The position numbers and the translations under genes were made by a program. A DNA stretch of 64,000 nt from positions 62,001-126,000 of the forward strand of contig NZ_FNBH01000005.1 in assembly GCF_900102265.1 (NCBI RefSeq). Direction: 5' to 3'. Under the pieces are notes generated by a model. The model was given only the letters and a program-made list of their open reading frames with translations. It was not told the origin of the DNA and made no database searches. The first letter of the stretch is position 1; each line of letters starts with the position of its first letter. The stretch comes from Epilithonimonas hungarica. GTDB taxonomy: Bacteria > Bacteroidota > Bacteroidia > Flavobacteriales > Weeksellaceae. This document shows positions 40,164 through 46,433 of this stretch, one piece after another.

Positions 40164-40373
40164 TTATTTTTTAGCAGCAGCTGAATCAACTTTAGCAGCA
40201 GCAGAGTCAACTTTAACAGCAGCTGAATCAACTTTAGCAGCAGCAGAGTCGATAGTTGCAACAGCAGAATCAACTACAGCAGAATCAGCAGCAGCAGTAT
40301 CAACAGTTTCAGTTTTTTTACAAGCTACAAGAGCAACAGCAGCGATAGCAGCTACGAATAATGATTTTTTCAT
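40164..40373 (-). CDS. Small Ala/Asp-rich repeat lipoprotein (paralog A)
   Basis: 69 residues from ATG 40373. The signal peptide MKKSLFVAAIAAVALVACKK ends in a lipobox, with the lipidated cysteine in VACKK. The mature part is only Ala, Asp, Ser, Val, Thr and Lys, and its end is built from seven-residue units (DSAAAKV, DSAAVKV, DSAAAKV, DSAAAKK), which fits a helical, possibly coiled, periplasmic protein, loosely like Lpp. Function unknown. A paralog with a nearly identical signal region is at 42237-42473, and the two flank a membrane protein/lipoprotein gene pair. The ATG at 40412 would hide the signal peptide. Confidence 0.8.
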   Translation of the reverse strand: MKKSLFVAAIAAVALVACKKTETVDTAAADSAVVDSAVATIDSAAAKVDSAAVKVDSAAAKVDSAAAKK

Positions 40374-40435
40374 AATAATTAAATTTAAATTGTTAGTTAA
40401 TAGATCGTCCATTATTTGAACAGGGCAAAATTATA

Positions 40436-42236: not shown

Positions 42237-42473
42237 TTATTTTTTGATTTCTTCTTTAGCAGCTTTCTCGTCAGCTTTTACTTCAGCTTTAGCAGAATCA
42301 GCAGTAGCTTTTACAGAATCAACTGTAGCAGTTGCAGTAGAATCGATAGCAGCAACAGCAGAATCAGCTGTAGCGTCTACTGAATCAACAGCATTAGCTT
42401 CTACGTTATCAGTTTTTTTACAAGCTACAAGAGCGATAGCAGCGATAGCAGCTACAAATAATGACTTTTTCAT
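42237..42473 (-). CDS. Small Ala/Asp-rich repeat lipoprotein (paralog B)
   Basis: 78 residues. The signal peptide MKKSLFVAAIAAIALVACKK is almost identical to that of paralog A at 40164-40373, also in DNA. The mature part (VDSVDATADSAVAAIDSTAT ...) repeats DS(V/A) units and ends in a charged KADEKAAKEEIKK helix. The strong similarity of the 5' parts and divergence of the tails point to a duplication with later change in repeat number. Function unknown. Its upstream region holds a TACCTTTG -7 element and a TTGTAAA/TTTACAA palindrome. Confidence 0.8.
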   Translation of the reverse strand: MKKSLFVAAIAAIALVACKKTDNVEANAVDSVDATADSAVAAIDSTATATVDSVKATADSAKAEVKADEKAAKEEIKK

Positions 42474-42633: not shown

Positions 42634-43203
42634 TTAAAATTCAAAATAATCATAAGGTGTAATTAAACCATCCAAAGCTATATCCAGTTCAAAAACATCA
42701 GCAACATCTTCATTCGGAGAAAAGAAATTTAAGCCAATTTTTTTATGAATCTTTGAATTATGAAAAAAGAAAGCATCATAGAAACCTTTCCCATATCCTA
42801 CTCTATTTCCCAGTCGGTCACAGTATAGCAAAGGCGTTAAAACATATTCCAATTCAACATTTGAATCAATATTTGAAATTGGTTCTTTGATTCCCAACTT
42901 GTTAATTTCAAATTCAGAATCCGGAAAGATCTCCACAGAAATCATTTTTCCATTTTTAATTTTCGGAACAAAAACCCTTATTTTATTATCAAAAAAATAA
43001 TCAATGAAAATCTGAGTATTCACTTCATTAAACCTTTCAATCGATAAAAAAAGATTAATCTTTTGATTTTCAATAATATTAAATTGTAAAATAAACTTTT
43101 TGAAGATTTTTTCGGACAAAAAAACAACCTCATCCTGTGATAAAGCCATTCTTTTTTCTCTATAAATCGTTCGAAGTTCTTTTTTAGTAAGACTAAGATT
43201 CAT
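42634..43203 (-). CDS. 5-formyltetrahydrofolate cyclo-ligase
   Basis: 189 residues from ATG 43203; converts 5-formyl-THF to 5,10-methenyl-THF with ATP. Family features: a basic N-terminal helix (LRTIYREKRMALS), VFVPKIKNGKM, and the C-terminal signature RLGNRVGYGKGFYDAFF near YVLTPLLYCD. Start: ATG 43203 follows the ferredoxin stop by two bases; a GTG at 43242 would overlap that gene and add an atypical N-terminus. It is the last gene of the trhO operon. Confidence 0.9.
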   Translation of the reverse strand: MNLSLTKKELRTIYREKRMALSQDEVVFLSEKIFKKFILQFNIIENQKINLFLSIERFNEVNTQIFIDYFFDNKIRVFVPKIKNGKMISVEIFPDSEFEINKLGIKEPISNIDSNVELEYVLTPLLYCDRLGNRVGYGKGFYDAFFFHNSKIHKKIGLNFFSPNEDVADVFELDIALDGLITPYDYFEF

Positions 43204-43205
43204 TT

Positions 43206-43436
43206 TTAATTTTCTTTGACCGAAATTATATTTACAGGACACGCTTTGGCAGCCCTATCACAAGATTCGGAAGCGTCGTATTGTGACGTTTTCATTGTAT
43301 GAAAGCCTTTTTTATCAATAGATTTTAACAATACGGACTTCCCGTCTTTTTTAGACATTCTAAAAAATTCCGGCGCAAACTCTGCGCAATAATTACAACC
43401 GATACATTTATCCCGCTGAAGTGTTACAATTATCAT
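43206..43436 (-). CDS. Small ferredoxin
   Basis: 76 residues. CIGCNYC near the N-terminus (after RDK) and ACPVNI near the C-terminus supply four cysteines for one [4Fe-4S] cluster; an extra cysteine in SESCDRA may be structural or allow a different cluster type. This is the single-cluster ferredoxin fold of about 60-80 residues. It lies between the U32-family gene (31-base gap) and the cyclo-ligase (2-base gap). U32 hydroxylases need iron-sulfur clusters and reducing power, so this ferredoxin is a plausible electron donor; that is inference from position. Confidence 0.88.
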   Translation of the reverse strand: MIIVTLQRDKCIGCNYCAEFAPEFFRMSKKDGKSVLLKSIDKKGFHTMKTSQYDASESCDRAAKACPVNIISVKEN

Positions 43437-43467
43437 TTCTATTAATAATCAAAGACAAAATTCTCTA

Positions 43468-44712
43468 TCAGGCTTGAACTATTTTATACAATCTGTCAGA
43501 AGGACGAACTCTGAAGTTGGTCTCGAAAGTGATCACATCAGATTTTGATGCTTTTTCCGCTTCTGGTTTTTGATCAACTCGCATCGTTTCTACAACCATT
43601 TCCTGAGAACCTGTCGTAGGCCCCTGAATCAAAACTTTATCACCAACTGTCAAATCGTATGCCTCTATAAGGAACTCCGCGATATTAGATTTTGGGTAAA
43701 AATGGCGTCCTTTTCCAACATAAATTTTCTTTTGAGTAGCGCTGGATCCGGAACTATCAGACCATTCACCTAATTCCTGACCAAGATAATACCCATTCCA
43801 GAATCCTCTGTTATAAACAGTTTCCAACTGCGACATCCACTCTGCAACCTTTTCCTGAGAAAAATTATTTTCAGCAATAGCATCAATTGCCTCTCTATAA
43901 GCTTTCACCACAGTTGCAACATACTCGGGAGCGCGTCCTCTTCCTTCGATCTTGAGAACTTTCACACCCGCATCTATGATCTGATCAAGAAAACCGATCG
44001 TGCAAAGATCTTTCGGAGACATCATATATTCGTTATCCAGTTCTATTTCAAAACCTGTTTCTTGGTCTATAATAGTATATTTCTTTCTGCAATTTTGTTT
44101 GCACGCCCCTCTATTTGCAGAAGAATTAGCCGAATGCAAACTTAAATAACACTTTCCAGAAACAGCCATGCAAAGCGCGCCATGACCAAAAATCTCGATT
44201 TCGACCAAATTTCCAGAAGGTCCTCTGACGTCATCTTTTACGATCTGGTTACATATTTTTTTGATCTGGCTAATGCTTAATTCACGACTCATTACCATTG
44301 TATCGGCAAAAAGCGCATAGAATTTCACCGTTTCAATATTCGTGATATTGATCTGTGTAGAAATATGGACCTCCATCCCGATTTGTCTTGCATAAGAAAT
44401 CACCGCCTGGTCCATCGCAATTACAGCAGTAATGTTGGCTGTTTTTGCTTTGTTTAGAAGTGTTTTTATAATAGACAAGTCATGGTCATATATAATCGTG
44501 TTAAGTGTAAGATAGGTCCTCACCCCTTTTTCCCCACAACGTCTGCTAATCTCCGGAAGGTCATCAATTGTGAAATTGATTGATGCTCTAGCTCGCATAT
44601 TAAGCTGCTCTACACCAAAATAAATAGAATCTGCACCATTATCCAAAGCTGCTTGCATTGATGTAAAATCGCCAGCCGGTGCCATCAATTCCATTCTACC
44701 GTTGTTTGTCAT
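43468..44712 (-). CDS. U32 peptidase-family RNA hydroxylase (TrhP-like)
   Basis: 414 residues from ATG 44712 (MTNNGRMELMAPAGDF); ATG 44694 is an alternative. The barrel domain begins MELMAPAGDFTSMQAAL and DSIYFGVEQLNMRARA. Four cysteines, C181, C188, C204 and C208 (ALCMAVSGKCYLS, GACKQNCRKKY), are the cluster ligands known in the family. E. coli members TrhP and RlhA hydroxylate tRNA U34 and 23S rRNA, respectively, using prephenate. The last 85 residues form a separate beta module (VGDKVLIQGPTTG) that also ends the neighbouring TrhO. The gene overlaps trhO by 17 bases. Confidence 0.88.
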   Translation of the reverse strand: MTNNGRMELMAPAGDFTSMQAALDNGADSIYFGVEQLNMRARASINFTIDDLPEISRRCGEKGVRTYLTLNTIIYDHDLSIIKTLLNKAKTANITAVIAMDQAVISYARQIGMEVHISTQINITNIETVKFYALFADTMVMSRELSISQIKKICNQIVKDDVRGPSGNLVEIEIFGHGALCMAVSGKCYLSLHSANSSANRGACKQNCRKKYTIIDQETGFEIELDNEYMMSPKDLCTIGFLDQIIDAGVKVLKIEGRGRAPEYVATVVKAYREAIDAIAENNFSQEKVAEWMSQLETVYNRGFWNGYYLGQELGEWSDSSGSSATQKKIYVGKGRHFYPKSNIAEFLIEAYDLTVGDKVLIQGPTTGSQEMVVETMRVDQKPEAEKASKSDVITFETNFRVRPSDRLYKIVQA

Positions 44713-46072
44713 CTCGGTCTTCCAAAATTTTATACAATTTATCCGACAATCTAATTCTGAACGGAATCTCAAAAGTAATCTGGTCTCCAACTTTAGCAGT
44801 TTCAGAAGAAACGCCATTGGCGAAAATTTCTTTTATGATAAACTCCTGCTCGCCAGTCGTTGGGCCAGAAATCAAAACTTTGTCACCAACTGAAACTTCT
44901 TTATTTTCAATTAAAAACTGTCCTATTTTCGATTTAGAATAATAATGTTCTCCTTTACCAATTAAGACTTTTTTACTTTTTATCTTTTGGCGAATATCTT
45001 TGGTGTCAGCTTTAGCCAAAGGTTTATCGGGTAAATTACCTGATTTTTTGAACTTCAAGGATTCGGATTTTCCTTTTCTGAAGATCTTATTCCCAACCTG
45101 CAGACCTTTTCTTTTCGCAACCTGCTCTTCCCAAGGCAAATGAATCGTTTCCAAACATTCTGTAGAACAGCAGTTTTCCATTGCAGCCTTACAGTCATCA
45201 CATTGGATAAACAACAAATGACAAGCATCATTCGCACAATTCGTGTGATTATCACAAGGTTTTCCACACTGGTGACATTGCGCAATGATATCGTCCGTTA
45301 TTCTCTCCCCTAATCTATGGTCAAACACAAAGTTCTTCCCAACAAACTTACTTTCAACACCTTCCTCTTTTACCTGACGCGCGTATTCGATAATTCCGCC
45401 TTCAAGCTGATAAACATTTTTAAAACCCTGATGTTTAAAATACGCACTCGCCTTCTCACAACGGATTCCGCCAGTACAATACATCAAAAGGTTTTTATCT
45501 TCTTTATAATCCTGCAATTGCTCATTGATAATTGGCAAACTTTCTCGGAAATTTTCAACATCCGGCGTAATTGCGCCTTCAAAATGCCCAACTTCACTTT
45601 CGTAATGATTCCTGAAATCCACTACAATCGTATCCGGATTGGCCAGCAAATCATTGAATTCCTGAGCCTTAAGATGAATTCCTTTATTCGTCACATCAAA
45701 AGTTTCGTCATTCAAACCATCCGCAACAATCTTATTTCGAACTTTAATCGTCAATTTCAAAAACGAGTGATTATCCTGCTCCACAGCCACATTCAGGCGA
45801 ATGCCTTTCATAAAATCGTACGCTTCCAAAGTGTCTCGGAAAGCCTCAAATTGATCCGCAGGAACACTCATCTGAGCATTGATTCCTTCGTGCGCCACAT
45901 AGATTCGGCCGAGCGCATCCAAGGCGTTCCAGGCTATAAATAATTCGTCGCGAAATTTCTTTGGGTTTTCAATTTTGGCATACGCATAGAAAGACAATGT
46001 AAGGCGTTCCTTACCAGCTTCATCAATAAGTCTGGCTCTTTCTTCTGCGCTTAAGGTGTTGTACAGTTGCAT
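44696..46072 (-). CDS. trhO: tRNA uridine(34) hydroxylase TrhO with extra C-terminal U32-type module
   Basis: 458 residues, about 110 longer than E. coli TrhO. The N-terminal ferredoxin-like domain (LSFYAYAKIENP ... VAHEGINAQMS) and rhodanese domain with MYCTGGIRCEKAS (C199 and C205) are intact. A cysteine-rich segment (CHQCGKPC, CANDAC, CDDC, about 266-302) probably binds zinc. TrhO performs O2-dependent formation of 5-hydroxyuridine at tRNA position 34. Residues 366-450 (VGDKVLISGPTTGEQE ... SDKLYKI) match the C-terminal module of the next gene's product, with roughly 41 of 86 residues identical. First gene of a four-gene operon. Confidence 0.92.
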   Translation of the reverse strand: MQLYNTLSAEERARLIDEAGKERLTLSFYAYAKIENPKKFRDELFIAWNALDALGRIYVAHEGINAQMSVPADQFEAFRDTLEAYDFMKGIRLNVAVEQDNHSFLKLTIKVRNKIVADGLNDETFDVTNKGIHLKAQEFNDLLANPDTIVVDFRNHYESEVGHFEGAITPDVENFRESLPIINEQLQDYKEDKNLLMYCTGGIRCEKASAYFKHQGFKNVYQLEGGIIEYARQVKEEGVESKFVGKNFVFDHRLGERITDDIIAQCHQCGKPCDNHTNCANDACHLLFIQCDDCKAAMENCCSTECLETIHLPWEEQVAKRKGLQVGNKIFRKGKSESLKFKKSGNLPDKPLAKADTKDIRQKIKSKKVLIGKGEHYYSKSKIGQFLIENKEVSVGDKVLISGPTTGEQEFIIKEIFANGVSSETAKVGDQITFEIPFRIRLSDKLYKILEDRDDKQR

Positions 46073-46106
46073 GCTATAAACGTTTTAAGTGAGAAAAATA
46101 ATGGCG

Positions 46107-46114
46107 CAAAGATA
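46107..46114 (-). promoter_or_regulatory. -7 promoter element of the trhO operon
   Basis: On the minus strand TATCTTTG matches TAnnTTTG exactly, 34 bases before the trhO ATG. The 21-bp repeat array begins just upstream of it. Confidence 0.55.
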
Positions 46115-46139: not shown

Positions 46140-46433
46140 TTGATAGTTATCAGGAATTCATTAGGTTATCAAACGATTTAATTTAACAATCAAACTAACT
46201 AAGTATGTCGTCCAGGATCTTAAATAGATAATCAAAGTACTTGAGTAAACAATCAAGGATATTGAGTAGACCGTCAAAGGTCTTGAGTAGACTATCAAAG
46301 GTTTTGAGTAGACTGTCAGAGGAGTTGAGTAGACAATCAGAGGAGTTGAGTAGACAATCAGAAGAGTAAAGTAGACTGTCAGAAGAGTAAAATAGGTTGT
46401 TACAAGAGTTAAGTAGATAGTTACAGATAAAAT
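46140..46433. repeat. Degenerate tandem repeat array with exact 21-bp period, about 14 units
   Basis: GTAGAC or a variant starts a unit at 46203, 46224, 46245, 46266, 46287, 46308, 46329, 46350, 46371, 46392 and 46413, with weaker units at 46182, 46161 and 46140. The central units follow GTAGAC-NN-TCA-(A/G)AGG-N-NTTGA. The array lies between the divergent trhO operon and DPP-IV gene. The minus strand is open for 92 codons with a YSxPLxV heptad, because 21 is a multiple of three. Confidence 0.9.

Follow-up and report, generated by a model that had tools for sequence, protein, structure and literature searches.

The window, a stretch of 64,000 nt of Epilithonimonas hungarica (GCF_900102265.1, NZ_FNBH01000005.1, positions 62,001–126,000; coordinates below are window-relative), contains a trhO gene overlapping a U32 gene, and the two products share a C-terminal module. 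How did this module come to be on TrhO, and what is it kept for? The features concerned are the following.

44696..46072, minus strand: trhO with a C-terminal graft, 458 aa (NCBIfam NF001133, 266.1 bits, cut-off 170)
45155..46000, minus strand: ordinary TrhO core, with UPF0176_N (residues 25–115), rhodanese (136–231) and Rhodanese_C (245–306), all above the Pfam cut-offs
44975..45064, minus strand: linker between TrhO core and graft, about residues 337–366, variable among relatives
44720..44974, minus strand: grafted barrel, TrhO residues 367–451 (BLASTP to the U32 C-terminus; AlphaFold model matched to 4he5)
43468..44712, minus strand: TrhP-like U32 protein, 414 aa, ATG at 44712 (PF01136 region and C-terminal barrel; 236.3 bits, cut-off 22.4)
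43474..43731, minus strand: C-terminal barrel of U32, residues 328–413 (BLASTP)
44696..44712, minus strand: overlap of trhO and U32, 17 bases (gene ends)
43206..43436, minus strand: single-cluster ferredoxin, 76 aa (PF13459 and PF13370 above cut-off), 31 bases downstream of U32
42634..43203, minus strand: 5-formyltetrahydrofolate cyclo-ligase (TIGR02727, 108.4 bits, cut-off 84.9), downstream of the ferredoxin

The overlap and the ferredoxin following it agree with the original prediction for this locus. The cyclo-ligase gene belongs to a gene order conserved in relatives, where it lies downstream and identifies the site. Ahead of trhO, the intergenic gap holds a tandem array (46225–46417; 21-base unit, about 7–8 copies, 81–83% alike). 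Two small related lipoprotein-like frames (40164–40412 and 42237–42473, minus strand), which have a common MKKSLFVAAIAA start and repeats rich in alanine and aspartate, flank two unknown genes.

TrhO ends in a barrel of the U32 type

In its core domains, its CTGGIR loop and its equivalog score, the window protein is like E. coli TrhO (YceA), the O2-dependent U34 hydroxylase, and it is presumably itself an O2-dependent enzyme forming 5-hydroxyuridine at position 34 (ho5U34). The active-site loop was read at residues 199–204, followed by C205 (200–206 in the E. coli numbering of PMC6599085, which, like PMC11138216, is cited here from its accessible part). The two proteins differ by about 110 residues, an excess that had been noticed before and consists of the linker and the U32-type barrel; the accessible part of PMC6599085 mentions no barrel on TrhO.

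By BLASTP, TrhO 367–451 and U32 328–413 were identical at 44 of 86 positions (51%) and positive at 61 (E 2e-24), against an earlier estimate of 41 of 86. A structural match of both modules had been set beforehand as a test, and it was found: the AlphaFold model of the TrhO module matched 4he5 in a fold search (18% identity), and the grafted module folds like the U32 C-terminal domain of known structure. The TrhO and U32 modules are thus homologous. Neither window module matched PF16325, the Pfam U32 C-terminal domain, which gave weak matches with 33 of the 52 modules of set A2 (E up to 10, best 1.5e-4), and PDB sequence searches with the U32 query and the module profile returned chance-level rows alone. 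The AlphaFold model of full-length TrhO was poor (pLDDT 51) and was set aside.

In the Geobacillus structures (4he5, 4he6) this domain sits on a U32 protein, whereas in the window it is also carried by a rhodanese-type hydroxylase. The TrhO-TrmR fusions described in PMC6599085 likewise join TrhO to a part of the same pathway, but with the methyltransferase TrmR as partner, whereas the window protein has gained the accessory barrel of a parallel hydroxylase. In the open-licence literature, as far as titles and abstract openings go, we found no report of a TrhO with a U32 domain or of a ferredoxin for TrhP; such a report may exist elsewhere.

The U32 protein is native to its family

The neighbouring protein had been called TrhP/RlhA-like. 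"TrhP-like" holds, since TrhP is its nearest equivalog, but it is not TrhP proper: it reached 195.2 bits with NF011996 (cut-off 534). Nor is it UbiU by NF047963 (170.7 bits, cut-off 440). It shares the U32 core with TrhP (YegQ) and B. subtilis TrhP2 (YrrO), both of prephenate-dependent U34 hydroxylation, and differs from them by its low score and by the adjoining ferredoxin gene. By motif spacing, its E173, C181 and C188 are read as the equivalents of TrhP E162, C170 and C177, named in PMC6599085. Its product is presumably also 5-hydroxyuridine at tRNA position 34.

A whole-genome search found no other U32 match in the genome of the window. In a tree, the protein grouped with the U32s of the window's family, called f1 hereafter, to which it is native. 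We considered whether trhO had entered through recombination within U32 and rejected this, as no mosaic signal was found in the window U32. Several genomes encode another U32 protein, which is longer (about 600–630 aa, 33–36% identical, in the core only; for example G218:C7:97401–98351 and G257:C51:122246–123175), and some of these genomes are without the TrhP-like U32.

Fused TrhO occurs in two families

A survey for the fusion and the operon had been proposed. Among the matches listed, TrhO spanned the module in 24 of 296 genomes of the phylum, namely 7/7 of f1 and 17/17 of g4, one genus (perhaps Flavobacterium) of a second family, f2, in the same order as the window; in the other 12 f2 genomes, TrhO matches ended before the module. 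The operon, as described below, also occurs in f2 without the fusion. Carriers among the best 80 of at least 567 matches belonged to Chryseobacterium, Epilithonimonas, Kaistella, Elizabethkingia and Halpernia, the top-scoring module from a named genome being that of Epilithonimonas hominis (89%).

Within f1, 24 of 90 genomes had a fused TrhO, one had an unfused TrhO (59% identical), and a full TrhO was not found in 65. A free-standing module match, counted as U32, was present in 64 of the 66 f1 genomes without the fusion (the two others are 76% and 81% complete), versus 8 of the 24 with it. The U32 query likewise had no full-length match in 4/7 f1 carriers and 7/17 g4 carriers. Altogether, among the matches listed, 41 distinct genomes had a fused TrhO, 18 with U32 and 23 without. 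The sole unfused f1 TrhO (L177 4358–5434, genome G360), about 60% identical to the window core and distant from it in the tree, is probably a separate acquisition.

Over the 296 genomes, both proteins were found in 54, TrhO only in 106, U32 only in 83 and neither in 53 (Fisher p 2.9e-6, with genomes treated as independent, U32 presence hand-picked from the match list, and G212, E 1.4e-27, just outside the TrhO threshold). Among the matches listed, TrhO was unfused in 95 of the 106 TrhO-only genomes. Since unfused TrhO is also found without U32, the graft is not the cause of U32 dispensability.

The fused gene crossed families

In a TrhO core tree of 48 rows chosen from TrhO loci, the fused cores formed one clade (100/100), and vertical descent, in which g4 would group with the other f2 sequences, was rejected (p-AU 0.000164). 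The fused gene therefore crossed families. Placement of f1 TrhO inside g4 was not recovered by the tree, and g4 TrhO as one clade was not rejected (p-AU 0.279); the likely direction is from g4 to f1, because f1 is mostly without TrhO. In the first of the module trees, all of which have fewer than 90 columns, the TrhO modules nested inside the g4 U32 modules (94/91 and 92/71).

The fusion may have arisen in g4 more than once, by two grafts or by one graft and gene conversion, with loci L081–L084 standing apart from the other g4 and f1 sequences. The linker of L081–L084 differs, their module letters are more U32-like, and the free module tree does not keep the g4 TrhO modules together. However, holding all TrhO modules as one clade scored 1.23 above the free tree (p-AU 0.55), a single TrhO-module clade was the best tree of the first module analysis (93/86), and the cores form a single clade; we consider a second graft, or conversion, rather unlikely.

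U32 and ferredoxin disappear together, in place

Unfused trhO lies directly upstream of U32-ferredoxin in f2 loci L085, L086 and L088, and after it in L087. This neighbourhood is therefore older than the graft. In 19 f1 loci without fused TrhO, U32 was always followed by the ferredoxin (about 1 kb off in L152) and in 17 then by the cyclo-ligase, which was not found at L156 and was inverted and farther off at L152. Carriers show either trhO-U32-ferredoxin-cyclo-ligase or, in f1, trhO-cyclo-ligase. Of 80 loci of named genomes, 79 had a usable trhO frame (all but L245); U32 and ferredoxin were kept in 15, and neither was present within the 5 kb flanks in 64. Of the 64 distances from trhO to the cyclo-ligase, three were strongly negative, probably from over-long starts, and one was 396 bases.

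A frame-shifted ferredoxin remnant was detected between fused trhO and cyclo-ligase in Elizabethkingia miricola (L213 5274–5409, tblastn E 6e-5; when the 64 segments were shuffled 20 times, E never fell below 0.25), and weaker traces lay in the same gap at L256 (E 0.002) and L250 (E 0.11). Given this remnant and the joint absence, U32 and ferredoxin therefore vanish together and in place. On the tree of fused TrhO (58 rows), U32 presence changed 14 times, 6 of them in g4 and 8 elsewhere; this is a quick tree on which gain and loss are indistinguishable. TrhO seems to have replaced f1's own U32 in many species. Its position in U32's place in many relatives suggests that both make one product, as had been supposed when they were first described as a pair.

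We therefore favour, with reasonable though not full confidence, a history in which a domain graft preceded horizontal transfer and in-place replacement, the graft serving TrhO, most likely as a tRNA-binding barrel. A copy of the U32 3' end would have been joined to trhO in g4, which has the trhO-U32-ferredoxin operon; the phylogeny supports this step. As to the route, U32 may, for example, have been duplicated in tandem and the copy fused by an in-frame deletion. The fused trhO then entered part of f1, directly upstream of the native U32, as trees and gene order show. The rest of f1 has U32-ferredoxin-cyclo-ligase and hardly any TrhO. Judging from the E. coli homologues and the gene order, both enzymes presumably make 5-hydroxyuridine at U34, TrhO with O2 and U32 with prephenate and electrons from the ferredoxin. 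Many carriers would finally have dropped U32 and ferredoxin together, leaving trhO beside the cyclo-ligase. The window locus, which keeps both enzymes, looks like an intermediate, and f1 would hold genomes from before, during and after the replacement.

The barrel is maintained for TrhO itself

In named genomes, dN/dS of the module was 0.072 in the 64 loci without U32 and 0.088 in the 15 with it (0.028 and 0.031, respectively, for the TrhO core). As the module is constrained even without U32, the graft is therefore kept for TrhO itself. Going by its fold and by the substrate of TrhO, the simplest reading is that it most likely acts as a tRNA-binding part. This would be an accessory barrel of an RNA enzyme that moved between unrelated enzymes of probably one pathway and was kept by selection.

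EF-Tu-type barrels have varied roles, and a common fold alone shows no function, hence no proof of tRNA binding. The barrel might thus contact the ribosome or a partner protein, or help the enzyme to fold or stay stable, and U32 might act on another RNA, such as rRNA, its loss being unrelated to TrhO. U32 enzymes include RlhA, whose target is 23S rRNA (PMC6599085), and the window protein is under the TrhP cut-off. Yet U32 was lost mainly in f1 carriers of TrhO, with trhO in its place, and both cores score closest to U34 hydroxylases, so that we hold these other roles and targets to be possible but doubtful.

Another reading builds on the local duplication of the original prediction: the end of the neighbouring U32 gene would have been copied to trhO within this lineage, and through the module both proteins would bind some partner in common, for example the ferredoxin. 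It fits the overlap and the 51% identity of the modules, but is very improbable: the window TrhO module is up to 60% identical to some g4 U32 modules, a clade of f1 TrhO and f1 U32 modules was rejected (p-AU 0.0022; 12 rows of named genomes left out, f1, g4 and five f2-type or other U32s kept), the fused gene was imported, and the module is still under constraint at loci lacking U32 and ferredoxin.

The ferredoxin is a genetic partner of U32

Cys 11, 14, 17 and 66 of the ferredoxin are the predicted ligands of one 4Fe-4S cluster; a further cysteine is at 59. At the U32 loci read, the ferredoxin was present in 27/27 of f1, 14/14 of f2 and 6/10 elsewhere, as well as in 15/15 of named genomes. 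Beyond the named loci, it was absent from all U32-less carriers read (14/14 in f1, 7/7 in g4). The ferredoxin is thus a genetic partner of U32. It had been proposed as a dedicated donor: it does track U32, but a role for both enzymes is not supported, since 64/64 U32-less named loci kept TrhO without a ferredoxin gene there. Found near U32 at every locus read of the order and gone where U32 is gone, it is a specific candidate electron donor. The [4Fe-4S] cluster of TrhP is redox-active (PMC11138216), in keeping with a ferredoxin as donor; according to the accessible part of PMC6599085, there is so far no evidence that TrhP itself catalyses the hydroxylation step.

tRNAs and later modification steps

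ARAGORN was applied to all 42 tRNA genes of the genome of the window. In six four-codon boxes, Val, Ala, Leu(CUN), Pro, Ser(UCN) and Thr, it showed no C34 tRNA, and UGG is the sole Pro anticodon. E. coli lacking the two hydroxylases is impaired once C34 tRNAs are removed (PMC6599085). U34 hydroxylation should therefore matter here. In that organism TrhP prefers tRNA-Leu3 and tRNA-Pro3, and TrhO the other four (PMC6599085). A stronger proposal would make the U32 barrel a portable tRNA-recognition part that gives TrhO the tRNA range of U32, the fused enzyme fully substituting for the U32-ferredoxin pathway, and the ferredoxin an unrecognised donor of prephenate-dependent RNA hydroxylation; taken as a whole, we judge this improbable. 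One of the 42 genes (L294 230–380; C3:262963–263060 of the same genome) is tRNA-like, with acceptor and T arms that look intact and an anticodon that is not assignable (ttcg by ARAGORN).

For the step after hydroxylation, CmoB had two matches in this genome, both far under cut-off (24 bits versus 275). TrmR-like matches (E 1e-20 or better) were found in 30 of 40 genomes picked from the 243 with TrhO or U32, versus 17 of 40 taken from the 53 with neither, and in 0/7 genomes of family f17 having U32 without TrhO; the f17 result counts against the favoured reading. The genome of the window encodes an O-methyltransferase (L104 1453–2100, contig C1) with one full Methyltransf_3 match, a candidate TrmR, whose best solved relatives are various O-methyltransferases, including a tRNA 5-hydroxyuridine methyltransferase.
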